From NCBI GenBank assembly GCA_021234155.1, contig JAJEKV010000008.1:24014618-24078617 (forward strand): a DNA stretch of 64,000 nucleotides. The letters run 5' to 3'. Each line of letters starts with the position of its first letter. Positions within the stretch are counted from its first letter, which is position 1. A model generated the notes under the pieces. That model was not told the DNA's origin. It saw nothing but the letters and a program-made list of their open reading frames with translations, and made no database searches. Shown here one piece after another: positions 34,219 through 64,000 of the stretch. Origin of the DNA: Isoetes taiwanensis. Taxonomy: Eukaryota; Streptophyta; Lycopodiopsida; Isoetales; Isoetaceae. The translations under genes and the position numbers were made by a program.

Positions 34219-34249
34219 ATGGTTCTCTTCTTATATAGAAGAGAACCAT
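34219..34249. promoter_or_regulatory. Perfect 13-bp palindrome holding the probable FRO TATA box
   Basis: ATGGTTCTCTTCT at 34219-34231 is mirrored by its exact reverse complement at 34237-34249 around a 5-bp centre. Read on the minus strand, the centre gives TATATAAG (34237-34230), a consensus plant TATA box about 112 bp upstream of the FRO start codon. A second TATA-like run lies at about 34122-34131 but is too close to the ATG to give a usual leader. The transcription start is inferred, not seen. Confidence 0.55.
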
Positions 34250-34425
34250 CATTCTGGGGAAAGGGACGCCTGTTTTAGCGTTAAGCCATTTTGGGCGTCA
34301 GATCTATCTATGGCCTGAGCCTTCTATGGCGCAGGCTTTCTTTGGCTCTGTCTACTATATATCCATGTTGTCTGCTAGCATTCCTCATGGGCGTTTCCTC
34401 TGAGCTGAATTCTGTTGGTTCTAGA

Positions 34426-40937: not shown

Positions 40938-41214
40938 ATTTTGCATTCTATGGCTAGTTTTCCATCTTCAATGTTCTTATCTACTGTCTCGCCTCGGCTC
41001 CCTTGGGTTCCTCAATCTCATGCAGCTGTTGTTTCACCTTTGGCGCACTCTGGATTTTGGTTGCTCCTCGTATATTTTGCATTCTATGGCTAGTTTTCCA
41101 TCTTCAATGTTCTTATCTACTGTCTCGCCTCGGCTCCCTTGGGTTCCTCAATCTCATGCAGCTGTTGTTTCACCTTTGGCGCACTCTGGATTTTGGTTGC
41201 TCCTCGTATATTTT
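40938..41214. repeat. Exact tandem duplication at a 136-bp offset inside element A
   Basis: The sequence from 40938 is repeated from 41074 without visible change, returning to unique sequence after 41214. It is one of at least fifteen duplications sharing this exact offset. Confidence 0.9.
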
Positions 41215-41853
41215 TGACATCCTTTGTTCTTTTGTCGGTGTCTCTTTCACATATAGTTTGACGCATTGATTCTCCAGTTTGTTTTCATGTGCTCATTGTT
41301 GTGGTCGTCATTTGTGGTTTGTGTTCGGTTTTTTGTGCCTTATTTGTTTACGCATTCTATTTGCCCCATAATTTTGGCTTTCTTGTTTGTTAATCGTGGT
41401 TGGCTCGTATCATCTTTATGAAGTTTGTATCATTTGTCTCTGTCTTCCTCCCATCGTTCTTTTGTTAGGTTTTGCATTCGATGGATAGTTTTTTCACCTC
41501 CAATTTTCTGACCTCTTGTCTCACCTCATCTCCCTTTGGGTTCACTAATCTCATTCTGCAGTTGTTTCTCCTTTGGCAAGCCCATGGTATCGGTTGCTCC
41601 TCATATATTATTCTTTGTTGTTCTCTACCGAGTCATGCCAGTTCCAAGTTAGTTCGTCATCATACGAAGGTCTTAGTTTCATAGTTGTTTCCCAGGACGT
41701 CTCTTTTCTGCATCTCTGCCGCTAAGAAATCGCCTGTACTCTCAGTGATCTTACTTGTTTTTGCTCGCAGTCTCGGTCTGTGATTGGAGGAGGTAGGTTC
41801 CTCTTTGTGTCGGATGTTGTTGCTTTGCAAAGGACCTTTCCCTAGAATGCCAT

Positions 41854-42960
41854 CATTCTGGGGAAAGGGACGTCTGTTTTAGCATTAAGCCATTTTGGGT
41901 GTCAGATCTATCTATGGCCTGAGCCTTCTATGGCGTAGGCTTTCTTTGGCTCTCTCTACTATATATCCATGTTGTCTACTAGCATTCCTCATCGGCGTTT
42001 CCTCTGAGCTGAATTCTGTTGGTTCTAGAGTTTCCCTCCCTCCCTCCTCTGACTCTAGTCACCTGATGTCGGCTCGTCTTAACATCTGTTGAAATCTTCT
42101 CGTTCCACCTAGAGAGGGCTGGATCGATTCTTCTCTTCTATATCTTTGTGGCTGTGCTATTGTGCTTGGTTGCTTCTGCTGGCCATTAACTATTTGTTTA
42201 CTATCGGGTTGATTCTCAGTTGGGTTGAAATCGTACCGTTCCACCTAGAGAGGGCTGGATCGATTCTTCTCTTCTATATCTTTGTGGCTGTGCTATTGTG
42301 CTTGGTTGCTTCTGCTGGCCATTAACTATTTGTTTACTATCGGGTTGATTCTCAGTTGGCCATTGGTCGTACTTTTACTCTCTCTCTCGGTGTAGCACTT
42401 GTGCAAACGCTATGTCGCTTCCGAAGATTCTTTATAATTTCTCTATTCTGCTATTTTTTCTCATCAGATTCTTGTGCTTTGCTTGCTTTTTCGAGCATGA
42501 TGCATGCTTGGCCATTGGGCTCCTAACCTTTTCACGTTAACTATCTGTATGATTGTCCGAAGATTCTTTATAATTTCTCTATTCTGCTATTTTTTCTCAT
42601 CAGATTCTTGTGCTTTGCTTGCTTTTTCGAGCATGATGCATGCTTGGCCATTGGGCTCCTAAGGGGTGGGGGTTGGGAGTCGATATTTGGGGGTTGCGGG
42701 CTAAGGTGCAGCTTTGATCTGGTGAATTCTGCCCTAACGAGCTTTGGATGCGGTTTTGGGTTCGGGAACTTTGGGGGTCATGGGCCTAATTTTATGTTTT
42801 GAGCTAGTTATGTGGCTGAGGTCATTGTTGGATTTTTTCACTCATATTCACTCATGTTGGGGCCTCATTGTGGGTACTCCTATGGGTCATTGTATTTTCA
42901 TTCAGCTCAATGGAACTCCATCGGATGTTGTTGCTTTGCAAAGGACCTTTCCCTAGAATG
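41854..42960. mobile_element. 1.1-kb element B, non-autonomous relative of element A
   Basis: It begins CATTCTGGGGAAAGGGACG, matches element A closely for 176 bp (to 42029), then differs, and ends with the same GGATGTTGTTGCTTTGCAAA...CCCTAGAATG sequence as element A. It starts just after the CCAT that follows element A. The right flank is GTAC, so a 4-bp duplication is not seen on both sides. B may be a deletion derivative of A, or A plus B may be one element with an internal terminal duplication. It contains two further 136-bp-offset repeats (42087-42359 and 42420-42662). Confidence 0.6.
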
Positions 42961-43652
42961 GTACAACATATGTTTTCCCGTGTTGGGCATGTGTCCTACA
43001 AAGGAAACACATGCTTACGTCTATCTTTGCACAGGGACATGTTGGCATTGACATACATGGAGTATAGCTGTTAAGAATCCTTCATTTAGATACATCACTC
43101 TAAAATATTTATTATTAGCTTATATGATCAAACATTATCATCGTACATTTAGAGGAGGAAATACGCCTTCATCGATACTTTACTAAGGGGATAAATTATT
43201 TATTTTTTACATGTTAAAAAAAAGTTATATATATAAGTATTCCCTCAACTTGACGTTCCCCTATTTACTAAGGGGATAAATTATTTATTTTTTACATGTT
43301 AAAAAAAAGTTATATATACAAGTATTCCCTCAACTTGACGTTCCCCTAAAATATACGGTATAAATATGTATATTTTAAGGCCATGGCACCATACAAGCCT
43401 ACTATACAGTATTGTATACCATCAAGTGTGCTTAGGGGTGCACGAACAAGTTATATTATATAACTTACCGAACCTTAGTTTTATGATGCATAAGTTAGTC
43501 TTACATGACCATAATGATAAGCACGTCCTTACCATTTCCCCCGATTAACATTTTTTCCAATAGAAATTGTGTTATATACTGTTGCACTATGGTCAATGAG
43601 GACAAGTTTTTCATTTCTGGATGATGACAACCTTATCTTGTTGTCAAATGAG
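42961..43652. other. Unassigned sequence between element B and the Copia element
   Basis: It holds an 85-bp tandem duplication (43179-43263 and 43264-43348, one visible base difference) in an AT-rich stretch. A short frame ending FLDDDNLILLSNE reaches the Copia target site and continues for only a few codons beyond it at 52304 once the element is removed. No gene is recognised. Confidence 0.4.
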
Positions 43653-44216
43653 TGTAAAAGATTGTGGTTCACATCAAAATTTCATAATTTAGAGTTGCAG
43701 AATAATGGCAGAAATTGTTCTAGCATTGAGGAGTTAGCACACAGTGTGATGCTGTGATAACCCTCAAGAACTGAGCATGGAGATATCTGTGTTATGAGGT
43801 TTAAAGGGGAACAAATAACAAATTACTAGGGCAACGACTTAAACTCATTGTTGTGAAGTTGAAGATTACCTATGGTTGTTAAAGTTGCAAATATTATAAA
43901 GGCAAAGGTTAAATCCTAAGGTTATTGCCTAAGGTAAGTCTTATGAATAAATGAAACAGTGAAGATCAATTATTTAGAAGTTGACCCTTGATCATGTTTC
44001 GGAGGGAACCGAAATACAAACTCGGTCCAATGCAAAAACGCCATGCTTGGAGCCTGATACAGAAACTAAGCAGTCGGTCAGGCTCACCGGCCGGACTGAT
44101 GGCTTCAAATAAACCTAAGGAGAATGGTAATGGATTTTTTGGCAGTTCTGAGGTTCGGGGCATCACTCAAATAAGGTCAGTATACAAAGAGGATAATTCA
44201 ATATGGTTAGGAGAAT

Positions 44217-44863
44217 CCCATCGATCCGAGACATCGGATCGCCATTCTAGAATGGGACGAGCATGCATGTTTTGCATGCATGCGGGCGGCGCATGCCCAT
44301 TTTGGTTGGGAGTTCGCTATTTTAGGCGTGTTTCTGCATCAACATCTCATCGGCGCTTCCTCTTCTCTCAGCAGTACCTTATTCTCTTTGAACCCACCCT
44401 CCCCCCCTTCTTTGTTATTGTATGGCGCATGCCCATTTTGGTTGGGAGTTCGCTATTTTAGGCGTGTTTCTGCATCAACATCTCATCGGCGCTTCCTCTT
44501 CTCTCAGCAGTACCTTATTCTCTTTGAACCCACCCTCCCCCCCTTCTTTGTTATTGTATTTTTATCGCGTGGCGCAGCGCATAATCAACCCTCCACTCGG
44601 GAGGTTTGTTTTGTCTTGTTGTTTTGTTGGTGATGTGCAGTGCGAGGGTTAGCGGCGGCATCTGTTTCGACTTTTTCCATTAGGTGGGTTTTGGGGCATT
44701 GTATTTTGTTGGGGTCCAAATGATATAATTGGATTTTCCCTTTATTTTTTATGGGTAGTTCGCATGTGTGCGGCTACCCACTATCCACCATTGTAGAAAA
44801 TCTGCTGAGATGAATGAGAAGCAAGTCTAAGGCGGTTTGTTGGTTTCATGCGAGTCCCATTCT
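44217..44863. mobile_element. 647-bp element nested in the 5' LTR, possible CATTCT-family member
   Basis: Comparison with the 3' LTR shows exactly what was inserted, with AGAAT on both sides (44212-44216 and 44864-44868). Near its ends the palindrome CATTCTAGAATG occurs at 44243 and 44858 in inverted arrangement (CATTCTAGAATGGGAC against its reverse complement), resembling the CATTCT termini of elements A and B. A small hairpin, CGATCCGA/TCGGATCG, occupies 44222-44241 outside the left copy. It contains a perfect 136-bp tandem duplication. No coding capacity was seen. Confidence 0.65.
44288..44559. repeat. Perfect 136-bp tandem duplication in the nested element
   Basis: Positions 44288-44423 and 44424-44559 appear identical. 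Unique sequence resumes immediately after. Confidence 0.95.
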
Positions 44864-45080
44864 AGAATGATTATTACATGACATATGGGTGTAAGTTGCA
44901 ATAGTGAATTACTATTGTATGTGATCATAGATGTATTGATCATGATGATTTAAGCATATGAATATCTATGATTATTGAGGATATTATGGTTGCTTAACAT
45001 TTGTATTGATGTGAACATGTGAGAAGGAAATTTTGGTATTGTTATTGTTGAATGAAATTATTTGCCATTGAAACTAACAG

Positions 45081-45097
45081 TGGTATTAGAGCAGGTT
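45081..45097 (+). promoter_or_regulatory. Primer-binding site for initiator-methionine tRNA
   Basis: TGGTATTAGAGCAGG follows the 5' LTR after one base. It matches the usual plant Copia PBS (TGGTATCAGAGC) with one difference, a T for C. Confidence 0.9.
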
Positions 45098-45108
45098 AAG
45101 ATTTAATC

Positions 45109-46356
45109 ATGGCAAGTAGATTTGGAGCAGGATTGCTAAATGCAATCGAAGTGTTCAAAGGTGATTCAGGTTTCCAGGTTTGGAAGGAAAAGGTGAAACA
45201 TGTTTTGCAGGTGGAAGATCTATGGGATCTTATAGAAGGAAACAATGAGGACCAGAGAAGTTCAGGAGGAAGAGAGAGTGTGGTTGGAAAGATTGCTGCT
45301 GTAGCAGAAGGAAGTTCCTCATCTAATGAAGAACAGATTGAGGAAGAATCTGCCCGAGAAGTGAGCCAAGTGACCAGAAGGAGAATATTTGAAGATAATT
45401 CCAAGGTGAGAGAAGCACAAGGAATTATCATGAGCAAGGTGAGCTCAAGCATAGTATTGAAGCTAAGAGGTATGAGCCCTAGACAAATGTGGAAATATAT
45501 GCTGTTAACATATGAAGAAAAAACCTCATCTCAGATAGATGTGTTAGAAAATGAGCTAAGAAGATTGAGGTTTAATGAAAAGGACAATGTCAATGATTTT
45601 TTTCAGAACTTTGACAATGTTGTGGCAGACTTGGAAGGAGCAGGAGTGTTTTATACACAACAACAACAAGTCTTGGCCATTTCTAGAGCAGTTGCAGGTT
45701 TGGTAAATATATCAATGTTTATTAGGACCATAGCTAAAACAAGAATAGAGGCAGAAAGAATGCTCAAAACTGAAATTGAACAGAACAGGGTTCTTGAAGA
45801 AGATGAAACATCACAAATATTATTTGCAAAAAATAAAGGAAAGAGAGAAGACAAAAAAATAGGACCATGCTACAATTGTGACTAGTTTGGACACTTGAAA
45901 ATAAACTGTCCTAATATGATGAGGGAGATTAACTGCTATAATTGTGGAGGTAGAGGGCATTATGCTTCTAACTGCTCAACTCCAAAAGAGAATTCTAGAG
46001 GAAGAGGAAAAGGAGGAAGGGGAAATGCTAGTATGAGAGGAAGAGGCAGGGGAAAGAATTCATATCATGAAGCCAATATTGCAGAAGAAATCCCTCTTGA
46101 AGAAGATGATGGAGCTGAAATCGAAGAGGTATGTGCACATCAGATTTTTTCTTGCTGTGACAATATTGACAATAATGATTTTCTGATATTAGATAGTGGA
46201 GCCGAAAAAACAATTGCATGCAAGTCCAAGATCTTGAAGGAGAAAAAGGAAAATCATGGAGGATATATCCAAGTTGGAAATGGGAATTTGCAAAAGGTGG
46301 AAGAAACTGGAATCCTTGAGTTGTTCACCTTAGAAGGAGAGATTGTAAATCTGTAA
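45109..46356 (+). pseudogene. Copia gag and protease, interrupted by two stop codons
   Basis: The frame opens at ATG 45109 (MASRFGAGLL), just after the PBS. A Copia-type Gag capsid region runs to a pair of CCHC zinc knuckles at about 45868-45995. A TAG at 45883-45885 falls inside the first knuckle, right after CYNCD. Reading resumes in frame through the second knuckle (CYNCGGRGHYASNC), a Gly/Arg-rich linker and the protease, whose catalytic triad LDSGA is at about 46190. A second stop, TAA, lies at 46354-46356 where the polyprotein should continue (VLCVPTL follows). Both stops are explained by single C-to-T changes of glutamine codons. Gag would package the RNA and the protease cleave the polyprotein. 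Confidence 0.9.
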
Positions 46357-46857
46357 AATGTTTTATGTGTACCAACTTTGGTCAGAAATTTAATCTCCAT
46401 ATCTCAGCTTGTAGATATGGGTTTTAAAGTTGTATTTGAGCAAATGCATTGCAAAATTTATGAGGGAAATCAATTAAAGTTTTTGGGCAGAAGAGTGGGA
46501 AATTTATTTGGTATAAATGCAAAATGCCTTGGCAGTGCAAATCTGTCCACCATTCCAAATATTGCAACATGGCACCAAAGACTTGGTCATATTAACATAA
46601 AGAACATAGAGGGAATGATTAAAAAGGGCTGGATTAAATCTGAAGACAGCAAACTAGAAGACTTCATATGCAGGGGATGTATGTTGGGCAAGCATTCTAG
46701 ATTACCTTTCTCAAAGGCCAAGGGAAGATCAAATGAAATACTAGGTTTAATCCATACTGACTTATGTGATCCTCTGAATGTAACAGGTTTAACAGGAAAA
46801 AGGTACTTCATAACTTTTATAGATGACTTTCCAGGAAAACCAAAATCTACTGCTTGA
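46357..46857 (+). pseudogene. Copia integrase N-terminal part
   Basis: The frame holds the pre-integrase/HHCC zinc-binding region (WHQRLGH...CRGCMLGKH, about 46570-46695) and the first catalytic Asp (LIHTDLCDPL, about 46748-46777), then FITFIDDF. Just after this the frame is lost and ends in TGA at 46855-46857. Comparison with the family and with the downstream frame indicates a single-base deletion in the run before CCAGG at about 46830. It is broken as written. Confidence 0.9.
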
Positions 46858-48841
46858 GAACAAAGGAGTTAGCTTTTGAAGCTTTCAAGGAGTATGCTGC
46901 TGAAGTGGAGCTTGAAACAGGGAAGAGGATCAAATGCGTAAGGTCGGATAGAGGAGGTGAGTACATGTCTTTTAAATTCAAAAAATATTGTAGAGATAGA
47001 GGTATAAAAAGACAATACACATGTAGCTACACCCCTCAGCAAAATGGTGTAGCTGAGAGGAAAAACAAGTCTATTCTAAATGCTGCAAGGGCAATGATCA
47101 AGGAATCAGGCCTGCCAAACTTCCTTTGGGAAGAAGTGGTAAAAACTGCAGTGATGATCCAAAATACAATGCCATCAGTAAGCATAGGAGGAAGATGCCC
47201 TGATGAAATGTGGTCAGGCAAAATGCCTAACTATGACAAGTTCAAAGTATTTGGATGCTTGGGTTATACACATGTGCCACAGGAAACTAGAAGAAAATTG
47301 GATGACAGATCAGTGGTGACATACCTTGTGGGATATGATGAAAACTCTAAGGGATATAGGATGTATAATCCCTTAAGAAAAACCATTATAGTGAGTAGAG
47401 ATGTGATTTTTGCTGAAAATGTGTTGTACAGACCAAACAAAGAAGAGGAGAAGGTAAAGCTCAATGAAAACTCGGATGGGAGTAAAACAGATAATGAACA
47501 TGATAAAACCATTAGGTTTGAAGGAGAAGAACTTAATTCTGATACAGAATCAGAAGAGGAAAACTCAGAGATGAATGAACATGGAGAAACAATAGGCACC
47601 CTAGATCCTTTCGAAAAAAATATTGAAAGCCAAGTAGATGCAAAACAGAAAAGGAGAAGGACAGAAGGGGAAAGGCTGAAAGAAGAATTGAACTTAGATG
47701 TGACTGAATATGGAAGGAAAATGGATGGGAAAAGCAATAGACTTGAAAAACAGGAACAGGAAATGCATGTAGATGAGGCTTTAATGGTGATGCAGGCTGG
47801 TGTACCAGAAAATTATGAGGAGGCAATTAATGGCATTGAGGGATCCAAGTGGAAACAAGCTATGATTGAAGAGATGGAATCATTTGACAGAACTTCCACT
47901 TATGAACTAGTGGATTTGCCAAAGGATAAGTGTGCAATAGGAAACAAATGGATTTATAAACTTAAAACAAACTCAGATGGGACGCCTAAATATTTATATA
48001 AGGCAAGACTGGTTGCACAAGGGTATTCTCAAAGGAAAGGGATTGATTTTGAAGAAACCTATTCCCCTGTGGTGAAGCTGGTTAGCATTAGGACAATAAT
48101 TGCAATGTCTAATGCATTAAATTTAGATTTACATCACATGGATGTATGTACTACTTTTTTGAATGCAGATCTAAGGGAGGAAGTTTACATGAATCAAGCT
48201 CAGGGCTTTGAGAAGGGAATTGGAAAGGTATGGAAATTGAAAAAGGCTGTTTATGGCCTAAGACAGTCTCCTAGGGAATGGTATGCTTGCATTAATGATT
48301 TCTTGAAAGATCAGGGATTTACTAAACTATTGAATGATGGGAATGTGTACATCCTAAAAAAACAGGAGAATTTTTGTATTATGGCAATATATGTTGATGA
48401 TTGTATACTAGCTTCAAACAATACAAAGTTCCTGGAAGATTGCAAAGGATTGTTAAAGGGCAGATACAAAATGTCTGATCTTGGTGAGTTGTCTCAATTT
48501 CTTGGAGTGCAGGTAAAAAGGGATAGACACAGGAGAACCATATCATTATGCCAGAGCAAATACATAGAAACAGTTTTAGAAAAATTCAACATGCAGGAAT
48601 GTAATCCAGTGAGGTCACCAATACTTCCTGGATGTAAGATATCCAAGCAAATGTGTCCCCAGACGGATGAAGAAATAGAGGAAATGAAAAGGATACCATA
48701 TAGGCAGCTAATAGGAAGTTTACTATTCATTGCTAACAACACGAGGCTAGATATAACTTACATAGTAAATGTACTGAGTAGATATAACAACAATCCTGGA
48801 CTTGAACATTGGTCTGCTGCAAAGAAGGTCTTAAGGTATTT
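46854..48841 (+). pseudogene. Copia integrase C-terminal part and reverse transcriptase
   Basis: After the frameshift, the integrase core resumes with the second Asp (VRSDRGGEY) and the catalytic Glu (VAERKNKS). An acidic linker of about 120 residues follows, then the reverse transcriptase with KARLVAQGYSQ, MDVCTTFLNADL and the active-site YVDD (YVDDCILAS, about 48400). Next is SDLGELSQFLGVQV, then KKVLRYF, where a LINE interrupts it at 48842. Two unusual residues, VCTTF where VKTAF is common, sit beside the first RT catalytic Asp. The open frame runs from 46854 without a stop, so this part is well preserved. Confidence 0.92.
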
Positions 48842-49107
48842 CAATCAATCAATCAATATATATTGATCATGCCATTTTTTGGGACCCTCAGGTCCATATG
48901 GCAAACAGTACATTTACATTTACATTTTAGGCGCCAATATGGCACATAAATCATCAAAATATAAATAATCCGTATTTCAATCAATCAATCAATATATATT
49001 GATCATGCCATTTTTTGGGACCCTCAGGTCCATATGGCAAACAGTACATTTACATTTACATTTTAGGCGCCAATATGGCACATAAATCATCAAAATATAA
49101 ATAATCC
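48836..49107. repeat. Perfect 136-bp tandem duplication at the LINE 3' end
   Basis: Copies 48836-48971 and 48972-49107 look identical. Each begins with GTATTT, the last six Copia bases, followed by the LINE's (CAAT)n-type tail and 3' region. The repeat therefore spans the junction between Copia and LINE. Confidence 0.95.
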
Positions 49108-51000
49108 AGAATTTTCAAGCGGTGTCATGTGATCATATAAGAGTATGATGTCGATCTTTCCTTAAAGATAGTCTTGGATATGATCGGCTTGGCCGGTTAC
49201 CAAGCTGGAATAAGTCTTGAAGATTATCGGCGGTGATGGCAAAAGCTTCCGCGGATATGCTCATAAGATGGACAAAAGAGCAAAGCATGGGCCTCGTCCT
49301 CAATTTGTGGTTACATCAAGCGGCGGGGACATAGCCGGTCTTTTTAAGCTCCAATCCTTGCCATCGCCGGTTTCTATGGCAAGGTGATGGGATGAGAGTG
49401 GCGTTACGGAGATGGTTTTCTTAAATTAGATGCGGATCCATTTCGGGTATGGCTGCTCACCATAGGTGTCAAGATTGTTAATTTCCTTTACGTAGAAGTA
49501 CGCTTTGACACTAGTATCACAATCCATCGAGCTTTGCAAGCTGCTTTGCGCGCATACAAATGCTTGCAATTCATCCCATTTGTGAGGCCGGTGCCGGGCA
49601 TTATATCGATTTTCCGCCCATTTGATTCTTGCATTATACCATCGTTCATTTTAAGCGAGAGTGCATAAGTGCTAGAGGCGGGGGCGTTAGTCAAGATTAG
49701 AGATCTGTCCAAGTAATGTAGCGTTTGCCAGGCGCATCAATCTCGATTGGGACTAGTCTGTTTTTACGCCAAGAGCATATTATATGGTGTTTGGGCCTTT
49801 ACTCCCAATTCCTCGGGGAGGAATTTTTTTTGTATTCTTTCCGGCTTGGCCCAAGCGATCTTGCCAATCCGGTGCCGGGATGGGCAGCCATAGAAACATT
49901 GCTTGGTTTAACTAGAACACCAAAAGCAGCTTGCGTAAATGCCAACCTTCTAGGTTATTTTGTTCACATACTTGGAGCATGCCAAATAATGCTTTCAGCC
50001 CACCTAATGCTCTCCTTGATCTTTGCGGTGACCATTTATAGTTGGAAGACATTTCAATCCCTAAATATTTATCTTGAGTGGATGACTTCCAAAGCAACAC
50101 CTCCAACCTGAGAAATCAGCATGGGGCCTTGAACCAAAGACCATGATTTTAGATTTGGAATGGTTGATAGACATACCTTTATGCTTGCAAAAGCGTCAAA
50201 GACATCTAGATGTATTTGCGGACCCAATTGTGTTTTGGAGATGAGTACAATATCATCGACAAAGCGGCGACAACTTCACTACATGGTCATATAAATCGCA
50301 CCAATTCCACTACGGTCATTGAGCCAAGATTCTACTTCATCAATGAACAGCCCAAAAGTCTTTGGTGGCGAGGGGGGCAGCCTTGTTTAACCCCTATGGT
50401 GCTGGAAAACGTGTATCGAGCGTAAAGGGAGCGAGAGTTCCACCAATACCTTATGATATAGGCAAGCAAGCTGCTTCTTTGAGAGCATGAGGGACCCCAA
50501 TTGCATCCATCTGTCTTGAAGCTTGCCTCGATCAACACGATCGAATGCCTTTGCAAGGTCCATGAATGCGAGGTATAGTTTGTTCCCCGCCCCTTAGCAT
50601 TTTACGTGAGCACCGGTGTCACTAAGTGATCAATAGTAGAGTAACCCGGATCTGAAACCAGCTTGGCCTGTTGCAATAACATCGCATCTTTGGCCCAATC
50701 CACTAGCTTTTGCTCAATCAAAGAGGCAAAAGTTTTAGCCATAATATTACCAACTAGAATTGTCCCGTAGTTATGTATGTCACGTTTTATGCCACATTTA
50801 TACACCTGGGACAGCTCTACTAACATACCGGTATCACGGAAGTCCGCCATGCTTGAGCACCGGGTTAAAGATGTGAGTGAGTTTTTCTAGGAGCAACTCA
50901 CCTCCCCATTTAAATGTGTAGAGGCCATTTAGCAAAGAAATCATCTCTTCTGCAGCAAAATTAGGACATGGAGAAGGGCTTTTGGTGATGTTCCATACAC
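48842..51000 (-). mobile_element. Decayed LINE inserted in Copia pol, minus orientation
   Basis: Read on the minus strand from about 51.0 kb, it shows a typical non-LTR reverse transcriptase. A pre-RT segment (LLNGLYTF...WGGELLLEKLTHIF) is followed by MAKTFASLIEQKL, a degraded FxDLAKAFDRVD block, GVKQGCP (about 50.39 kb), the active-site FVDDIVLIS (about 50.25 kb), YLGIEMSSN, and a C-terminal EDEAHALLLCPSY zinc-finger remnant near 49.27 kb. The 3' end carries a short (ATTG)n-like tail instead of poly(A), as in RTE-type LINEs. Many stops and frameshifts are present. The right edge is approximate. About ten Copia codons appear missing at the insertion site, so a clean target duplication was not found. 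Confidence 0.85.
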
Positions 51001-51004
51001 TGGA

Positions 51005-51508
51005 ATAGTTTACAGGACAGATAATTTACAATTGAATTGTTATTCAGATGCTGACTGGTGTGGGGATATGGATGAAAGAAAATCCACTTCTGGATATGTT
51101 TTGATGTTAGGTGGTGCTCCCATAAGCTGGAGAAGCAAGAAACAAGCATCTATTGCTTTGTCTACTGCAGAATCTGAGTATGCAGCAACTACCATGGCAG
51201 CTAAGGAAATTATTTGGACACGAAGACTGTTGAATGAACTAGGGATTGAGCAGAAGGAAAGCACCAGACTTTTCTGTGATAATCAGAGTTGTATTGCAAT
51301 GTGTAAGAACCCTGTTCTCCATGAAAGGACCAAGCACATCAAAATGGAGTTACATTATATCAGGGATATGGTGGAAAAAGGGTACATTCAATTAGTATAT
51401 ATAAAGAGTGAAGATCACCTAGCAGACATTTTCACAAAAGCATTAAGTTGGAAGAGATTTCAAAACTTGACCAAATTACTGAACTGCCAGGATGTTATGA
51501 AATTATGA
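51005..51508 (+). pseudogene. Copia RNase H domain, separated from RT by the LINE
   Basis: The frame resumes at about GIVYRTDNLQ and continues with SDADWCGDMDERKSTSGY, the metal-binding Asp region, then SWRSKKQASIALSTAESEY with the catalytic Glu. FCDNQSCIAM follows, then HERTKHIKMELHYIRD, and the conserved HLADIFTKAL near the C terminus, before TGA at 51506-51508. The domain itself is intact. It degrades the RNA strand during reverse transcription. The polypurine tract follows 4 bp later. Confidence 0.93.
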
Positions 51509-51512
51509 TATG

Positions 51513-51522
51513 AAAAGGGGAA
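51513..51522 (+). promoter_or_regulatory. Polypurine tract of the Copia element
   Basis: AAAAGGGGAA directly precedes the 3' LTR and primes plus-strand DNA synthesis in this family. Confidence 0.9.
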
Positions 51523-52298
51523 TGTAAAAGATTGTGGTTCACATCAAAATTTCATAATTTAGAGTTGCAGAATAATGGCAGAAATTGTTCTAGCATTGAG
51601 GAGTTAGCACACAGTGTGATGCTGTGATAACCCTCAAGAACTGAGCATGGAGATATCTGTGTTATGAGGTTTAAAGGGGAACAAATAACAGGTTACTAGG
51701 GCAACGACTTAAACTCATTGTTGTGAAGTTGAAGATTACCTATGGTTGTTAAAGTTGCAAATATTATAAAGGCAAAGGTTAAATCCTAAGGTTATTGCCT
51801 AAGGTAAGTCTTATGAATAAATGAAACAGTGAAGATCGATTATTTAGAAAGTTGACCCTTGATCATGTTTCGGAGGGAACCGAAATACAAACTCGGTCCA
51901 ATGCAAAAACGCCATGCTTGGAGCCTGATACAGAAACTAAGCAGTCAGTCAGGCTCACCGGCCGGACTGATGGCTTCAAATAAACGTAAGGAGAATGGTA
52001 ATGGATTTTTTGGCAGTTCTGAGGTTCGGGGCATCACTCAAATAAGGTCAGTATACAAAGGGGATAATTCAATATGGTTAGGAGAATGATTATTACATGA
52101 CATATGGGTGTAAGTTGCAATAGTGAATTACTATTGTATGTGATCATAGATGTATTGATCATGATGATTTAAGCATATGAATATCTATGATTATTGAGGA
52201 TATTATGGTTGCTTAACATTTGTATTGATGTGAACATGTGAGAAGGAAATTTTGGTATTGTTATTGTTGAATGAAATTATTTGCCATTGAAACTAATA
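51523..52298 (+). repeat. 3' LTR of the Copia element
   Basis: It starts TGTAAAAG like the 5' LTR and ends AACTAATA where the 5' LTR has AACTAACA, so the terminal CA has changed to TA. It lacks the 647-bp insertion. The duplicated target ATGAG follows at 52299-52303. Confidence 0.95.
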
Positions 52299-52303
52299 AT
52301 GAG

Positions 52304-53011
52304 AAAATCGAATGTCTATAATTAGTGAATTCTTGCTTAAAGGTGATGTACCCTTGAACTGGTACAAGCTTGCTTGCATTATTTTAGGATGTAAGCTTTA
52401 AGCTTTACTCAATAGCATGTTGGCCTTAAGCATTTGATGAGCAAAAAGAGCTTGTAACTAATGGATGGTTTTTATGAGTTATGTTTTTTAATTCAAAATG
52501 TGCTCCACCTCTTACTTAATTCTTTGAGAGAAATAACTTGAGCACTCGAATTTGAATTCAAAAAACCTTATTGCTTCTTCTTCTTGTGATTGCCATGATA
52601 AAATCCAAGCCGTATTAATCCAATTAAATCAATCTTGAAAAGCAGATACAATAAAATGAATTCGATGACTCGGTTTTGCAGATCCCATGATAAATTTTTA
52701 AGAACCTTGCCAAATCAGACCATAAAAATGTTATTTGAACACAAAAAACTTAACCAATCATGGCCATATCATACACCATCAGAAAACCCTTGAAGAGAGC
52801 TTTCCAACACAACAAGAATCATTGAAAACCTGAGTCACATGTCAAACATTATGTTAAAAAGTATACTGCCTTCAAAATTGCATCGCATGCACTTGCAAAA
52901 AGGTACCCAAGATCATCTTATTCTAGCATATGTAGCTCGAGTTATGAGCTTGGAAACAATTGCCATTATACTGCTTTTCTCTCTAGAGCTTCTCTCGCTG
53001 TATCTTTCGTG
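52304..53011. other. Unassigned flank between Copia and the tandem units
   Basis: AT-rich sequence with no recognised gene. It contains a pyrimidine-rich end (CTTCTTCTTCTTG at about 52.57 kb) and leads into the poly(T) at 53012. Confidence 0.35.
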
Positions 53012-53034
53012 TTTTTTTTTTTTTTTTTTTTTTT
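53012..53034 (-). repeat. Poly(T) run of 23 at the start of tandem unit 1
   Basis: It is the poly(A) of a minus-strand retroposed sequence, or an expanded homopolymer, and is missing from the corresponding position before units 2 and 3, where TTTTTATTATA is found instead. Confidence 0.6.
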
Positions 53035-56000
53035 AATGATGGAGTTTTTTATGCGTAACATGAGGCAATATAAAGTCTAGTTTTCAAAGTTCCCAAGGAC
53101 ATGGGGAACCAGTGTAATGCAGTTGTGAGTTACAAATATGGAGCTTTTTTAGAATATTGTCCATAACCTTGAATTTATTGGTGTTATGGTCATTATGGTT
53201 AAATCACCATATATGGTGACAAGATGGGTTTAGTCTATGATGTGCTTCTGTTTATCATGTGGGACTGTAACTGATAATCTGTTTATGGTATGACTTACAT
53301 AACCCTTTTCCACATTGGAATGTGAACCTGACTTGAGTTTTAAGCTTTGCTTAAATATGTACCTTCTCTTCTCAGGCCGGAATTGGGCTCACAAGTAAAG
53401 GTAAAGTCTCTTGAAGTTGAATTATCTAGACATTGGAACTTGTTTTGACTTTCTAGGATGCATGTTATTGCAAAGGCAAGTAAAAAAGACAATTGATAAA
53501 ACTAGAGGTTTTTGTATTCTACATATGGCCGATGGACGTTATATGGGCAGATCTAAGTGTTGTGGCCTTAGAGCATGGTAAGTACGTGAAGTAATGATTG
53601 GGAACAAGATATATGTGGACCATGGAACTTCCAAAACAAGTTAAAATCATGTATTCTATCATCATGTATTCTGACCATAAGTGGGACATGTCATTGGCAT
53701 TCACCTACGGTATTGGCATTGGCATTCACCAATGGTTTGAGCATGTTTACTTCTGATGGTCCACGATAAGGAAAATCGTGCAACATTGAAAATACCATGG
53801 ATAAATACATTATAACCCTAAAATTGTGTACGATTATAAGAAATGATATTTCAGAGGAAAAGACAAGGAGGATCGCCATTGCGCATCTGCCATATGGAAG
53901 CTTGGAGTGATCCTCAACCACTGATAAAAGGTAAGGCTGTGATTTTACAGAGATTAGGTTTGAGCAAATATAAAAATCGGCCAGTGCATGACCTGATTTT
54001 AAGCTATGCTAGAATCTTCATTAGGGTTCGAAGCAGGGCCGGCGGCCTGTGTGGCGTTGAAGCAACATCCTGCATCTGATATTCATCATAAATAGTGATC
54101 AAATTGCTACATTATAATACTGTTGCTGCATCTTGGCACATGATTTGTGATGAGAATCAAATGAAAAAAGACAAAGGAAATGGTGCAGATAACATCCTAA
54201 TATATTGTAGCTTCAGATGATCTGAGTGCAAGTAGAAATAGCGGCAAAAGAGAAGAGCAATAATGGTGAGCATTCAACTGAAATTTCTCTGAATAAGCTG
54301 GATGAGTATGGCAACAAGGATTTCCTCAAGCCGATGGAATTAAAGCTGAGACAAACGGCTACTCTCAGGTCTGATTAAGTCAATTTAAATCCTTGTCTAT
54401 TTCATGTAAAATGCTTCATGTATTTTTGATTCAATCTCTTTTTTTTTTTTTTTTTTTTTGAAGAACGTGTTACTTCATATTATACACTCAAAATATTACA
54501 AAGTATTTCCAGAAGTAAGAAATATCCCTGAAGCATCAATCACTTTTAGATGATCACTCCATATTGGAAATTTAATACGATCAGGCCAATTGGAGATCTG
54601 AAAGCAATTATACAACTTCTTACGAATTTCTTGAAGTACCACCTGAGAAGAAATATGTTTATCATAAAAGACCTTTCTTCGCCTTCGCTTCCATACACTC
54701 CATATTAGCCAAGACTTTGCCATGTGAAATGCAATCCTTTTAGAAGCAGTCCACTGATTTGGATAAATACCCAAAAGAAAGTGCTGACTATCCAAAGATA
54801 CTCCAAAAAGAGAATGCAGCCAGGACCTAAGACTACTCAGCTCTGCACACAAATATAAACAATGCTCCAATGTTTCAATGCACCGCTCACACATTGGGCA
54901 AAGTGGGCTTACTCCCGGCTTAAAGCGATGAACCATCTCATTAACTCTCAAAGAGCGATGAATCACCTGCTCGTTGCTATAATGCATTATCCTGCAGTTC
55001 ACCTTTCACCTTATGTCTGATCATGGGCTTTGCACATCTTGCTTTAAGCCAAAAAAGAACGGTATATCCATGCTTGCTCTGACCATATAAATGCTCTGAC
55101 CATATAAATGTTGAGCAAACTGAATATTAAGAGAGATTGTTAAGACCAAGGTGCCCAATTATTATATCCAGGGGTAGTTTACTGGGTGTGGATGAATCCA
55201 TGCAGCCAGCTTTGTCCACTTCATATAACTTACTGTAGAAGGTAAATACATGTAGCCTAACTAATAACATTTCTGATAAGACCAAGGTGCCCAATTATTA
55301 TATCCAGGGGTAGTTTACTGGGTGTGGATGAATCCATGCAGCCAGCTTTGTCCACTTGAGGTACAGTGTCCTTTGAGTAATGCTTTTCTACTAAGTATAT
55401 ACTGTTGTATAGAGCTTTGTCCACAGAGCTTAGACCATAATAAAATTATTGAATCTGCTTGTTGCATCAGGTTATATTATTGTTCTACATTCTAAGTATG
55501 GTTTATCCCCCTAGCATATATACTCATTTGCAGAACTTGGAAGCACCAAATTATAGAAGACCATGCATTCGCTGGGGTTTAGGTAGTGGAAATGACAATT
55601 CTGTTTTAATTCATACATCTGCTAGATAATGTTGGCTTTATGGAAATTCTAACACGTTATGCTCTTGCTGATGCTAGTTACATGATTGGACCTACTTGCA
55701 TTTTTTGTTTTATAAACATGCAAGGTGAAGGGCGATGAGCCCAAGAGATCCGTAGCTTACCTGCTAGTGACTTAGGCTCTTACCCTTCTTAGGCTAACTG
55801 TCCTCTGGTTTCACTGCAGGTAACGGGATTTCTTGCTCCTGTGTATGTTTTCCCAGTATTCAATTTGTCTACATGACATGGAAGCTAAGAATGATTCAAG
55901 ATCGAATTTCAAGATTGCTTCAACAACAAAGATCACTTTGAACGTATACTTTTATATTCTCAAATTGGTGTAACAATGGATATAGACGTGAGTATTCAAT

Positions 56001-57685
56001 TTGTCTACATGACATGGAAGCACTATTATCATTATTTGCAATACAAAGATCTTTGAATTATTTGGACTCAATGCCTTGTAATATACGTTAAAAATGTTCT
56101 AGATATTGGAGAAGAGTTTGTAGTTTGTTGAATTTATAACCATGTCATGGCCTAAGTTGAAATACACCTGTTTTAAACTTAGGGCTGCTAATTGTACCTT
56201 AAAAGGATCTTTGCAAAAGGTCTTGGAAAGGTAGAAAGTCTGTTTGAACAGGTTTAAAGGTTTTTTTTTTATCAATACTCAGTTCTCTAGTTTTACTAGA
56301 GACCATGGTCATGGTTACTTTATTTCTCAGGTGTAAAATTAAATGAATATCTGTGAGTACTAATGACAATGTGGATTTATAGGAGACTACAGGAATTACT
56401 ACTGAAGCCATTGAGGTAGACTTTAACTCGTGCAGCCTGCCATACAAGTTGTAAATGCAGTAAGATCTTTTTATCAATTTGGACGAATACTCACTAAGGT
56501 AACAAATTCATACCTTTAGAAGATGCTTCTTATAGGAGATTGAAAAAAATATATCTGATAAAATGATGCTTAGACATGGAAATGACTTCTCCTTTGATTA
56601 TAGACTATGCTTGGGTTTTTGGAGTTTTACCAAGCATGGTTGTAAATGATAAAAAACTGATACTTCTATTGCCATTTGGCTTGATATCTTCTACTACCAT
56701 TTGGCTCTAATATGACTCCTTTTAAGGAGAATACAAGTAAAATGACAGATGCTGGAAAGGATTATTCTGATGCAAGTAATCGATATAAGTGAACTTATAC
56801 AATTCAAATAGTATTGCAGAAAGGACAGTCCGAGCTCTGGAGTTCAAACTGTCTTGGCATATATCAAGAATAAGGAAATGCACCGCAACACTTGTAGCAT
56901 GAGACTCCTGCTCTAGTTGCAGTATGGTACGTGCAACTTTACTGATCTAAATGTTAATGACATTAAGCAACCTGACTTCTCTATTAAGACTCTGCTGGAT
57001 TATTGATGACTTATTGAGAAGCATATTTCATATGAATAGTTGTGGGTCAATACAACCTCACCAAGGCCTTTTTGTACATGATGAGATTGGACATAATTTG
57101 TCAAGAAGACTGTCATATGAAATAAATTGCCATTGGGCTTATGAAGTCTATGAATTGCCATTGGGCTATTGCAGACCATACTGGCGAGCTTTGAAGGTAA
57201 TCCTTTCCGAGATTTTTCCTTATATCTATACTCACTCAAATGCTTCTTTGCATTCTATACAATAAAGAAGTTTTTGATCAAGTTTTCAGCGTAGATTATA
57301 TTTCTGGAACATATATGGGGTAGGCAGGCATTGGCACATACTAGTACTCTTAACATGCAGCATAGCTTGCTCTCTTTATTGGTCCACTTGCTTGCCATTG
57401 GCACGTGTTTTCAAAATGTAATGTGCATAGATTATATTTCTGGAACATATATGGGGTAGGCAGGCATTGGTGCATACTAGTACTCTTAACATGCGGTATA
57501 GCTTGCTCTCTTTATTGGTCCACTTGCTTGCCATTGGCACGTTAAAGAATAATAAATACTTGTGGGGTAGGCAATATAGGTAGGGTAGGGTTTTGGCAAC
57601 AAGGTCCTACTCTCCTTGTTGCTATCTCTATTTATGAATTTTGGCCCACCCTGACCTACGGTAGGAGGCAGGCTTTTTATTATAT
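53035..57685. repeat. Tandem unit 1 (about 4.65 kb)
   Basis: The unit starts AATGATGGAG and recurs at 57686 and 62633. Contents in order: an exon-like block GCCGGAATTGGGCTCACAAG at about 53.38 kb preceded by TCTTCTCAG and followed by GTAAAG; a splice-like AGGATGCATGTTATTG; a second exon-like block before GTAAGG at about 53.93 kb; an open stretch ending in KPMELKLRQTATLRSD (to about 54.38 kb); an L1 fragment; and AT-rich sequence. I cannot identify a host gene. It carries 136-bp-offset repeats at 55141, 55855 and 57292. Confidence 0.8.
54439..55060 (-). mobile_element. 5'-truncated L1-type LINE 3' end in unit 1
   Basis: On the minus strand a 168-codon frame (55002-54496) carries the zinc-finger domain common at the C terminus of plant L1 polymerases (CPMC...LEHCLYLC, about 54.9 kb). 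It continues with WSVWKRRRRKVFYDK and ends at a TAA. A poly(A) of about 21 (T run 54439-54459 on the plus strand) follows. The reverse transcriptase itself is absent, as expected for a truncated insertion. Confidence 0.85.
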
Positions 57686-58968
57686 AATGATGGAGATTTT
57701 TATGCATAACATGAGGCAATATAAAGTCTAGTTTTCAAAGTTCCCAAGGACATGGGGAACGGTGTAATCTGATTGTGAGTTACAAATATGGAGCTTTTTA
57801 GAATATTACGTCCATAACCTTGAATTTATTTTGGAATGTGAACCTGACTTGAGTTTTAAGCTTTGCTTAAATATGTATGGGATAAGTGCCTTTTCCTTCT
57901 CTTCTCAGGCCGGAATTGGGCTCACAAGTAAAGGTAAAGTCTCTTGAAGTTGAATTATCTAGACATTGGAACTTGTTTTGACTTTCTAGGATGCATGTTA
58001 TTGCAAAGGCAAGTAAAAAAGACGATTGATAAAACTAGAGGTTTTTGTATTCTACATATGGCCGATGGACGTTATATGGGCAGATCTAAGTGTTGTGGCC
58101 TTAGAGCATGGTAAGTACGTGAAGTAATGATTGGGAACAAGATATATGTGGACCATGGAACTTCCAAAACAAGTTAAAATCATGTATTCTATAATCATGT
58201 ATTCTGACCATAAGTGGGACATGTCATTGGCATTCACCTACGGTATTGGCATTGGCATTCACCAATGGTTTGAGCATGTTTACTTCTGATGGTCCACGAT
58301 AAGGAAAATCGTGCAACATTGAAAATACCATGGATAAATACATTATAACCCTAAATTTGTGTACGATTATAAGAAATGATATTTCAGAGGAAAAGACAAA
58401 ATGGTTTGAGCATGTTTACTTCTGATGGTCCAAAGCTTGGAGTGATCCTCAACCACTGATAAAAGGTAAGGCTGTGATTTTACAGAGATTAGGTTTGAGC
58501 AAATATAAAAATCGGCCAGTGCATGACCTGATTTTAAGCTATGCTAGAATCTTCATTAGGGTTCGAAGCAGGGCCGGCGGCCTGTGTGGCGTTGAAGCAA
58601 CATCCTGCATCTGATATTCATCATAAATAGTGATCAAATTGCTACATTATAATACTGTTGCTGCATCTTGGCACATGATTTGTGATGAGAATCAAATGAA
58701 AAAAGACAAAGGAAATGGTGCAGATAACATCCTAATATATTGTAGCTTCAGATGATCTGAGTGCAAGTAGAAATAGCGGCAAAAGAGAAGGGCAATAATG
58801 GTGAGCATTCAACTGAAATTTCTCTGAATAAGCTGGATGAGTATGGCAACAAGGATTTCCTCAAGCCGATGGAATTAAAGCTGAGACAAACGGCTACTCT
58901 CAGGTCTGATTAAGTCAATTTAAATCCTTTTCTATTTTATTTAAAATTCTTAATTTTTTTTTTATTAA

Positions 58969-60330
58969 ATTTTTTTTTTTTTTTTTTTTTTTGAAGAACG
59001 TGTTACTTCATATTATACACTCAAAATATTACAAAGTATTTCCAGAAGTAAGAAATATCCCTGAAGCATCAATCACTTTTAGATGATCACTCCATATTGG
59101 AAATTTATTTTTTTTTTTTTTTTTTTTTGAAGAACGTGTTACTTCATATTATACACTCAAAATATTACAAAGTATTTCCAGAAGTAAGAAATATCCCTGA
59201 AGCATCAATCACTTTTAGATGATCACTCCATATTGGAAATTTAATACGATCAGGCCAATTGGAGATCCGAAAAGCAATTATACAACTTCTTACTTAATTT
59301 CTTGAAGTACCACCTGAGAAGAAATATGTTTATCATAAAAGACCTTTCTTCGCCTTCGCTTCCATACACTCCATATTAGCCAAGACTTTGCCATGTGAAA
59401 TGCAATCCTTTTAGAAGCAAGTCCAATCGATTTGGATAAATACCCAAAAGAATAGAATAGAATAGAATAGAATAGTTTTTTAACGCCCACGAAGACCAAT
59501 AGGTCATGGGACCCATACAATGGGCTAGTACAATCATTACTACTAGGATTAAAAACCCTCGCCGAAAAGGTTTTCAAGGGAAAAACCTTTGCAGTAATGA
59601 TGATACTAGACAAGCTTAGATAATGACTACTGAGGGCTCGCGAATTGTTGACGTTTATCTAGAACCTCAAGTATGTATAATGCCAAGTCATGCATGATGG
59701 TGCTACCGAGAAGTTGTGGAAGTGTGGAATGGAATGCTAAGGTCTAAAAAATGATTCCGGACTATCTCAAAAGCGGGCAACTCGAGGAAGAGTATGGCTT
59801 TCATCTTCAATAACCTATGGCGTGAATCGGGCACATAAGCACATAGTCTCGCCGCGGCAATTGCGGCCGCTCCCATCTGTCTCAATCCGTAGACATTGTG
59901 GGACCCCCGCGGCGAATTGATGCAATAGCTACAAGCTTGTTCCTGGACAATGAAGCAAGCAAATAAGCTTGGGGCCCTGGTGCCAAAGTGGGATTTATGT
60001 GTGCTGACTATCCAAAGATACTCCAAAAAGAGAATGCAGCCGGGACCTAAGACTACTCATTTCGCACACAAATATAAACAATGCTCCAATGTTTCAATGC
60101 ACCTCACACATTGGGCAAAGTGGGCTTACCCCGCTTAAAGCGATGAACCATCTCATTAACTCTCAAAGAGCGATGAATCACCCGCCGTTGCTATAATGCA
60201 TTATCCGCAGGTTCACCTTTCACCTTATGTCTGATCATGGGCTTTGCACATCTTGCTTTAAGCCAAAGAACGGTATATCCATGCTTGCTTTCGACCATAT
60301 AAATGCTCGACCATATAAATGTTGAGCAAA
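58969..60330 (-). mobile_element. L1-type LINE 3' end in unit 2, duplicated tail and nested insertion
   Basis: This is the counterpart of the L1 fragment of unit 1. Its 3' end (T run, then GAAGAACGTG...) appears twice, at 58993 and 59129, an offset of exactly 136. At about 59451-60001 it is split by a second LINE fragment. The zinc-finger frame is broken by many small differences from the unit 1 copy, most of them at CTG/CAG. Confidence 0.75.
59451..60001 (-). mobile_element. LINE fragment with (AATAG)n tail nested in the L1 fragment
   Basis: The stretch is absent from unit 1, so its limits follow from comparison. It begins with about five AATAG units, read as a (CTATT)n tail on the minus strand, followed by ACGCCCACGAAGACCAATAG, whose minus-strand reading (GSHDLLVFVGVKKLF) resembles the 3' ends of tandem-tailed LINEs. 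The rest encodes no recognisable domain. It is unusually rich in CG. Confidence 0.6.
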
Positions 60331-62632
60331 CTGAATATTAAGAGAGATTGTTAAGACCAAGGTGCCCAATTATTATATCCGTGGGTAGTTTTATGGGTGT
60401 GGATGAATCCATGCAGCCGACTTTGTCCACTTCATATAACTTATCAGAAGGTAAATACATGTAGCCTAACTAATAACATTTCGATCATTGTCCACAGAGC
60501 TTAGACCATAATAAAATTATTGAATCTGCTTGTTGCATCAGGTTATATTATTGTTCTACATTCTAAGTATGGTTTATCCCCCTAGCATATATACTCATTT
60601 GCAGAACTTGGAAGCACCAAATTATAGAAAACCATGCATTCGCTGGGGTTTAGGTAGTGGAAATGACAATTCTGTTTTAATTCATACATCTGCTAGATAA
60701 TGTTGGCTTTATGGAAATTCTAACACGTTATGCTCTTGCTGATGCTAGTTACATGATTGGACCTACTTGCATTTTTTGTTTTATAAACATGCAAGGTGAA
60801 GGGCGATGAGCCCAAGAGATCCGTAGCTTACCTGCTAGTGACTTAGGCTCTTACTCTAACACGTTATGCTCTTGCTGATGCTAGTTACATGATTGGACCT
60901 ACTTGCATTTTTTGTTTTATAAACATGCAAGGTGAAGGGCGATACATGACATGGAAGCTAAGAATGATTCAAGATCGAATTTCAAGATTGCTTCAACAAC
61001 AAAGATCACTTTGAACGTATACTTTTATATTCTCAAATTGGTGTAACAATGGATATAGACGTGCTGATTCATGTGACAGTGGGGTACATTTGACTATTAT
61101 CATTATTTGCAATACAAAGATCTTTGAATTATTTGGACTCAATGCCTTGTAATATACGTTAAAAATGTTCTAGATATTGGAGAAGAGTTTATAGACGTGC
61201 TGATTCATGTGACAGTGGGGTACATTTGACTATTATCATTATTTGCAATACAAAGATCTTTGAATTATTTGGACTCAATGCCTTGTAATATACGTTAAAA
61301 ATGTTCTAGATATTGGAGAAGAGTTTGTAGTTTGTTGAATTTATAACCATGTCATGGCCTAAGTTGAAATACACCTGCTTTTAAACTTAGGGCTGCTAAT
61401 TGTACCTTAAAAGGATCTTTGCAAAAGGTCTTGGAAAGGTAGAAAGTCCTGTTTGAACAGTTTAAAGTTTTTTTTATCAATATTTTCAGTTCTCTACTCG
61501 TGCAGCCTGCCATACAAGTTGTAAATGCAGTAAGATCTTTTTATCAATTTGGACGAATACTCACTAAGGTAACAAATTCATACCTTTAGAAGATGCTTCT
61601 TATAGGAGATTGAAAAAAATATATCTGATAAAATGATGCTTAGACATGGAAATGACTTCTCCTTTGATTATAGACTATGCTTGGGTTTTTGGAGTTTTAC
61701 CAAGCATGGTTGTAAATGATAAAAAACTGATACTTCTATTGCCATTTGGCTTGATATCTTCTACTACCATTTGGCTCTAATATGACTCCTTTTAAGGAGA
61801 ATACAAGTAAAATGACAGATGCTGGAAAGGATTATTCTGATGCAAGTAATCGATATAAGTGAACTTATACAATTCAAATAGTATTGCAGAAAGGACAGTC
61901 CGAGCTCTGGAGTTCAAACTGTCTTGGCATATATCAAGAATAAGGAAATGCACCGCAACACTTGTAGCATGAGACATGCAAGTAATCGATATAAGTGAAC
62001 TTATACAATTCAAATAGTATTGCAGAAAGGACAGTCCGAGCTCTGACTTCTCTATTAAGACTCTGCTGGATTATTGATGACTTATTGAGAAGCATATTTC
62101 ATATGAATAGTTGTGGGTCAATACAACCTCACCAAGGCCTTTTTGTACATGATGAGATTGGACATAATTTGTCAAGAAGACTGTCATATGAAATAAACTG
62201 CCATTGGGCTTATGAAGTCTATGAATTGCCATTGGGCTATTGCAGACCATACTGGCGAGCTTTGAAGGTAATCCTTTCCGAGATTTTTCCTTATATCTAT
62301 ACTCACTCAAATGCTTATTTGCATTCTATACAATAAAGAAGTTTTTGATCAAGTTTTCAAAATGTAATGTGCATAGATTATATTTCTGGAACATATATGG
62401 GGTAGGCAGGCATTGGTGCATACTAGTACTCTTAACATGCGGTATAGCTTGCTCTCTTTATTGGTCCACTTGCTTGCCATTGGCACGTTAAAGAATAATA
62501 AATACTTGTACAGGTAGGCAATATAGGTAGGGTAGGGCTTTGGCAACAAGGTCCTACTCTCCTTGTTGCTATCTCTATTTATGAATTTTGGCCCACCCTG
62601 ACCTACGGTAGGAGGCAGGCTTTTTTTATTAT

Positions 62633-64000
62633 AATGATGGAGATTTTTATGCATAACATGAGGCAATATAAAGTCTAGTTTTCAAAGTTCCCAAGGACAT
62701 GGGGAACCAGTGTAATGCAGTTGTGAGTTACAAATATGGAGCTTTTTTAGAATATTGTCCATAACCTTGAATTTATTGGTGTTATGGTCATTATGGTTAA
62801 ATCACCATATATGGTGACAAGATGGGTTTAGTCTATGATGTGCTTCTGTTTATCATGTGGGACTGTAACTGATAATCTGTTTATGGTATGACTTATATAA
62901 CCCTTTTCCACATTGGAATGTGAACCTGACTTGAGTTTTAAGCTTTGCTTAAATATGTATGGGATAAGTGCCTTTTCCTTCTCTTCTCAGGCCGGAATTG
63001 GGCTCACAAGTAAAGGTAAAGTCTCTTGAAGTTGAATTATCTAGACATTGGAACTTGTTTTGACTTTCTAGGATGCATGTTATTGCAAAGGCAAGTAAAA
63101 AAGACGATTGATAAAACTAGAGGTTTTTGTATTCTACATATGGCCGATGGACGTTATATGGGCAGATCTAAGTGTTGTGGCCTTAGAGCATGGTAAGTAC
63201 GTGAAGTAATGATTGGGAACAAGATATATGTGGACCATGGAACTTCCAAAACAAGTTAAAATCATGTATTCTATAATCATGTATTCTGACCATAAGTGGG
63301 ACATGTCATTTTGTGGCCTTAGAGCATGGTAAGTACGTGAAGTAATGATTGGGAACAAGATATATGTGGACCATGGAACTTCCAAAACAAATCGTGCAAC
63401 ATTGAAAATACCATGGATAAATACATTATAACCCTAAATTTGTGTACGATTATAAGAAATGATATTTCAGAGGAAAAGGCAAGGAGGATCGCCATTGCGC
63501 ATCTGCCATATGGAAGCTTGGAGTGATCCGTGCAACATTGAAAATACCATGGATAAATACATTATAACCCTAAATTTGTGTACGATTATAAGAAATGATA
63601 TTTCAGAGGAAAAGGCAAGGAGGATCGCCATTGCGCATCTGCCATATGGAAGCTTGGAGTGATCCTCAACCACCGATAAAAGGTAAGGCGCGGATTTTAC
63701 AGAGATTAGGTTTGAGCAAATATAAAAAATCGGCCGCTGCATGACCCGATTTTAAGCTATGCTAGAATCTTCATTAGGTTCAAGCAGTACGGCCACTGCG
63801 GTGGCGCTGAAGCAACATCCCACGATCCGATATTCATCATAAATAGTGATCAAATTGCTACATTATAATACCGTTGTCTGATCTTGGCACATGATTTGTG
63901 ATGAGAATCAAATGAAAAAAAGACAAAGGAAATGGTGCGATAACATCCTAATATATTGTAGCTCGGATGATCCGAAAGTGCAAGTAGAAATAGCAAGAAA
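62633..64000. repeat. Tandem unit 3, partial (runs off the window)
   Basis: It matches the first ~1.2 kb of unit 1 and includes the ~150 bp lacking in unit 2. It has 136-bp-offset repeats at 63175 and 63393. From about 63.66 kb to the end nearly every difference from units 1 and 2 falls at a CTG or CAG. In this copy the coding-like stretch reads DDPKVQVEIA without the stop seen in units 1 and 2 just upstream of VQVEIA. Confidence 0.85.

Follow-up and report, generated by a model that had tools for sequence, protein, structure and literature searches.

Why should fifteen sequences in a single 64-kb stretch of the Isoetes taiwanensis genome (contig JAJEKV010000008.1) each be repeated at a distance of exactly 136 bases? 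In this study, we analysed the letters of that stretch (hereafter the window) and found that its sequence toggles between two registers lying 136 bases apart, register 1 being the true sequence and register 2 the sequence 136 bases upstream of it. The 136-base repeats are almost certainly a product of assembly or finishing error rather than of biology. Their probable cause is an artefact in which stretches that were impossible to polish were filled from a draft taken 136 bases too far upstream. The observations behind this reading are the offset at which each piece starts, the compensating losses wherever a control exists, the near-equal lengths of the exchanged pieces, and the distinct error type of the fill bodies.

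Direct comparison within the window recovered every one of the 15 pairs listed in the initial annotation, and in 15 of 15 the two copies lie exactly 136 bases apart. A gapless scan of offsets 20 to 1499 (segment cut-off, a score of at least 20) gave 15 segments at offset 136 and no more than one at every other offset, so that no second offset recurs in that range, a result that also ruled out another repeat period near 136 as a candidate. When identical runs of at least 20 bases were counted at offsets 1 to 2000, 17 were found at offset 136 (three of them within the event at 57292), five at offset 1, two each at offsets 2, 3 and 85, and one at each other listed offset. A single 85-base tandem copy at 43179-43348, with 84 of 85 bases alike, is unrelated to the 136-base offset. 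Most of the start coordinates given earlier held; 42087 moved to 42088 (with three mismatches near the start), 58993 to 58972, inside a T run, and 61055 to 61054. The repeats had also been described as sharing an exact length, which is correct for the offset but not for the amount copied: the matches span 31 to 141 bases, seven being full copies (136-141) and eight shorter (31, 33, 70, 80, 81, 89, 107 and 115). Given that match lengths vary at a fixed offset, the constant quantity is the offset and not the copied length. The two copies were identical at 1556 of 1563 compared bases, with seven differing, and this agreement is far above chance; the count omits 57407-57427, the start of one block whose first copy lacks 11 bases.

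All 15 events fall within the last 23.06 kb of the 64 kb (P = 2e-7 under uniform placement, for a boundary set after seeing the data). In the initial annotation, none had been noticed before 40.9 kb, and the gapless scan revealed upstream only a single weak segment at offset 136, in a C/T-rich repeat at 10493 (24/30, score 12). A long C/T-rich stretch at 9888-11425 is strongly strand-biased and made of degenerate short repeats. A 185-base repeat, 34246-34430 and 41850-42034 (95.7% alike), flanks the first 136-base event on both sides. The five duplications at 41-49 kb are the following.

41074-41209, + strand: second copy of 40938-41073, in an identical run of 141 bases
42224-42359, + strand: second copy of 42088-42223, 133/136
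42556-42662, + strand: second copy of 42420-42526, 107/107, without a control for the overwritten bases
44424-44559, + strand: second copy of 44288-44423, 136/136
48972-49107, + strand: second copy of 48836-48971, 136/136

Slippage, unequal exchange and template switching yield lengths that vary between sites, and short junction matches are usual. This pattern of biological tandem duplication was not found here, a single offset being present in 15 of 15 events and four of the seven full-length copies having no extra matching base beyond 136.

Ten of the 15 duplications lie in a tandem array, in which the original state of the sequence can be read. Self-comparison demonstrated that the region from 53.0 to 64 kb consists of three head-to-tail copies of a unit of about 4.7 kb.

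53023-57673, + strand: array unit 1, used as control
57674-62620, + strand: array unit 2
62621-64000, + strand: array unit 3, which ends at the window edge

The array could be real or itself an assembly product. Unit 2 holds 548 bases (59453-60000) that are not in unit 1 and that start in an AGAAT repeat. No 136-base event is common to two units at the same position, so the other units show the original bases at each event; this does not hold for 55277 in unit 1, opposite which unit 2 carries a loss of its own. The far end of the event was measurable against an undisturbed unit in seven of the 10, which means that seven of the 15 events were measured to both ends. In the list below, the leader is the first 136 bases of a long out-of-register piece and the body is what follows.

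55277-55357, + strand: second copy of 55141-55221, 81/81; the control (unit 2) is interrupted at the same place
55991-56021, + strand: 31-base copy of 55855-55885, replacing 29 bases seen in unit 2 (61064-61092)
57407-57830, + strand: out-of-register piece, 424 bases against a true 424, with leader 57407-57542 and error-rich body 57543-57830
57407-57542, + strand: leader of this piece, its last 115 bases matching 57292-57406 with four mismatches
57830/57831: junction at which 135 bases are lost after the piece
58400-58432, + strand: 33-base copy of 58264-58296, replacing 31 bases seen in unit 1 (53867-53897) and unit 3
59108-60482, + strand: out-of-register piece, leader 59108-59243 a copy of 58972-59107, body to 60482
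60482: far end of this piece, with about 138 bases lost relative to unit 1, itself disturbed there
60855-60943, + strand: 89-base copy of 60719-60807, replacing 87 bases seen in unit 1 (55784-55870)
61190-61495, + strand: out-of-register piece, 306 bases against a true 307, leader 61190-61325 a copy of 61054-61189, body to 61495
61496: junction at which 137 bases are lost after the piece, by direct alignment
61976-62045, + strand: 70-base copy of 61840-61909, replacing 69 bases seen in unit 1 (56906-56974)
63311-63390, + strand: 80-base copy of 63175-63254, replacing 79 bases seen in units 1 and 2
63529-64000, + strand: out-of-register piece, leader 63529-63664 a copy of 63393-63528, with an error-rich body that reaches the window end

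In every one of the seven measured cases, the duplication was offset by a near-equal loss, a finding of the present analysis that is absent from the initial annotation. On passing from register 1 to register 2, the sequence repeats 136 bases; on the return, in the cases that were measured, almost the same number is lost. The five short copies stand in for true stretches of almost their own length (piece/true, 31/29 at 55991, 33/31 at 58400, 89/87 at 60855, 70/69 at 61976 and 80/79 at 63311), and the same is the case for the long pieces at 57407 (424/424) and 61190 (306/307). After each of three full duplications, a loss occurs ahead of the next event (135, about 138 and 137 bases at 57830/57831, 60482 and 61496, respectively). 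The loss at 60482 was measured against unit 1, which carries its own event at 55277, so neither of these two sites is an exact test. The alternation of gain and loss and its near cancellation, as expected of misregistered fill, were thus seen in seven events, the other eight of the 15 having no sound control.

These losses bear directly on the cause proposed earlier, namely the joining of pieces with an untrimmed overlap of k-1 = 136. The more general part of that proposal, that the repeats are an artefact of the way in which sequence pieces were joined, has strong support. Untrimmed overlap between de Bruijn pieces accounts for near-identical copies and for one offset in unrelated sequence, which is what was found (15 of 15 at 136). 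However, plain non-trimming would only add bases, and losses matched the gains in all seven of the 15 events that could be measured; simple untrimmed overlap therefore does not fit. A variant in which overlaps are trimmed at the wrong end of reverse-oriented pieces would also make gains and losses alternate in pieces of near-equal length, but those lengths should then be equal, and six of the seven measured pieces are off by one or two bases. By themselves, these k-1 explanations do not account for the event-free sequence before 40.9 kb, and we regard them as unlikely, although they are the strongest of the alternatives.

The bodies of the out-of-register pieces carry an error type of their own. 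We scored clusters of differences against another array unit, every base being counted once; five body stretches were covered (without the last six bases and without 59453-60000, which unit 1 lacks), together with eight in-register stretches (leaving out the T-rich sequence at about 58921-59107, 56022-57406 as query side, and short edges). In the bodies past the first 136 bases, 1506 columns held 49 clusters (32.5 per kb), of which 32 lay within one base of a CAG or CTG in the clean sequence, the background share being 15.8%; none of 20000 random draws was as high. The in-register stretches had 16 clusters in 3078 columns (5.2 per kb), none of the 16 at CAG/CTG. A wider count, from which overwritten stretches were excluded and in which some stretches enter twice, gave 75 clusters in 2002 columns for the bodies (46 at CAG/CTG), 32 in 4079 for in-register sequence (two at CAG/CTG), and four in 616 for the leaders (none at CAG/CTG), making the leaders as clean as register 1. 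Many of the body changes place CCG, CGG or CG opposite CTG or CAG, and small insertions or deletions (indels) occur as well. In three-way alignments, the odd one out was the register-2 unit: three clusters (19 columns) set unit 2 apart in one block, and 16 (42 columns) did the same for unit 3 in another, compared with zero to two clusters for in-register units in each of three blocks. Both the cluster densities and the three-way alignments are what a lower-quality source for the fill bodies would give. In the four long pieces, the first difference appears 9 to 52 bases beyond the end of the leader (at 57564, 59268, 61378 and 63674), indicating that quality falls soon after register 1 stopped. 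The five overwritten true stretches contain 14 CAG/CTG in 295 bases (about 47 per kb), as against 22.8 per kb in register-1 array sequence. Neither untrimmed overlaps nor wrong-end trimming predicts CAG/CTG-centred differences in bodies but not in 136-base leaders.

A real process by which resident sequence is repeatedly overwritten with DNA lying exactly 136 bases upstream, perhaps with a preference for CAG/CTG-rich stretches, might be imagined, and the regularity alone speaks for it. We give this possibility a negligible chance. Each jump was reversed by a nearly equal jump back (seven of seven measured), the piece bodies differ from their surroundings in error type, and the same four full-length copies show no match beyond 136. 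Furthermore, the copied stretches are alike only as array units; this comes from self-comparison, in which short motifs were not included.

Taken together, these data point to misregistered draft fill. The region from 40.9 to 64 kb would be a mosaic of polished sequence, presumably register 1, and of stretches that could not be polished. A stretch [p, q) left without polishing would receive the draft sequence [p-136, q-136); the first 136 bases of the fill would then repeat the sequence before p, and the last 136 or so true bases would drop out at q. A stretch shorter than 136 bases gives only a short copy that replaces true bases. The source of the fill may be an unpolished nanopore-type draft affected by methylation. 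Nanopore errors occur at methylated CC(A/T)GG, plants methylate CHG, and the window, with its Copia element and ferric reductase fragment, has the look of plant DNA; it is from these points that we infer the nature of register 2, including both the methylation and the platform. The shift itself might stem from a mismatch of one 136-base piece between two draft coordinate systems (an end that was trimmed, a clip that was ignored or the padding of a chunk), and the steadiness of 136 across 23 kb fits such an origin. At 57407, the one case of its kind, a first copy of 125 bases (57282-57406) is followed by a second of 136, which suggests that the shift is counted in the coordinates of the fill.

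Two haplotypes or assembly versions that differ by a 136-base indel near 40.9 kb, and between which the sequence was switched by coordinate rather than by alignment, would likewise produce alternating gains and losses of one size, with none upstream of the indel. Real haplotypes, however, should add further indels over 23 kb and the offset would drift, whereas it is 136 in 15 of 15, and the differences in the bodies, at CAG/CTG and with small indels, are closer to base-calling errors than to allelic variation. Such switching by coordinate is a highly improbable explanation.

Several observations weigh against misregistered fill. No control unit exists for the five duplications at 41-49 kb, the control for 55277 is broken at the same place, and the piece at 63529 leaves the window. 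All five short pieces exceed the true stretch by one or two bases, an excess that we read as draft indels, although an off-by-one rule is possible. The register-1 copy at 57292-57406 disagrees with the fill and with unit 2 alike (four mismatches and 11 missing bases), the reverse of what is predicted from a cleanly polished register 1; our guess is mis-polishing, perhaps with reads of another unit.

Extra copies that are present in an assembly and not in the genome are familiar as false duplications (PMC9516828). The present case differs in that each gain, wherever there is a control, goes with a loss, that the offset is fixed at 136, and that short copies replace true sequence. GoldPolish-Target (PMC11887200) and ntEdit+Sealer (PMC9196995) are described as soft-masking error-rich stretches, which are then excised, polished and re-inserted, or filled; the likeness to our case lies in raw or unfixable stretches within polished assemblies. 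In the portions of these two sources consulted, no shift on re-insertion is described, the default flank of GoldPolish-Target is 64 as against 136 here, and nothing points to 136; neither program is claimed to have been used here. No fixed shift is named as a known fault in the material consulted on polishing tools or false duplications, in which no search was aimed at one. In nanopore consensus sequences, about 70% of errors are reported to lie in Dcm motifs (CCAGG/CCTGG) with the then-current Oxford Nanopore Technologies basecallers and default models (PMC6591954). The gathering of errors at a motif is common to both cases; that one is bacterial, whereas here the motif is CAG/CTG in plant sequence, where methylation and platform are our own reading. 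A narrow literature search turned up no paper that treats nanopore errors at CHG sites in plants.

Other features of the window were also recorded. A probable Copia long terminal repeat (LTR) pair lies at 43650-45077 and 51520-52296, with gag, zinc knuckle, pre-integrase, integrase and reverse transcriptase matches between. When the two LTRs were compared in search of error-rich stretches at 41-52 kb, eight differing columns lay in the first part, while the second part, of 214 bases, had none; one of the eight (44076/51947, CGG versus CAG) is body-like. The Copia frames were also used to look for the far end of the piece at 44424: read by eye, within the window's own sequence, 46357-46854 runs on into 46827-48863 with a small frame change near 46830 and no evident 136-base loss. 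The 5′ LTR holds an insertion of about 650 bases that includes the 44424 duplication and is bordered by AGAAT, a 5-base repeat of the kind that a transposon leaves on inserting. Near its RNase H region, the Copia element seems to be split by some 2.1 kb of other DNA (48840-50975, limits by eye). On the minus strand, 31288-32073 holds a ferric reductase fragment with an NAD-binding domain; among 51 listed relatives, five are named to species, all plant proteins with 28-33% identity. Transfer RNA and Rfam scans of the window gave no matches.

If misregistered fill is indeed the cause, the error would keep sequence length nearly constant, and length checks may therefore miss it. At each site it would have destroyed 29 to about 136 true bases and planted false tandem repeats, so that tandem-duplication calls, gene models and recent repeat insertions based on such an assembly would be led astray. 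The 136-base offset thus matters as a warning of assembly quality, for which a per-contig histogram of short self-offsets is a cheap test.

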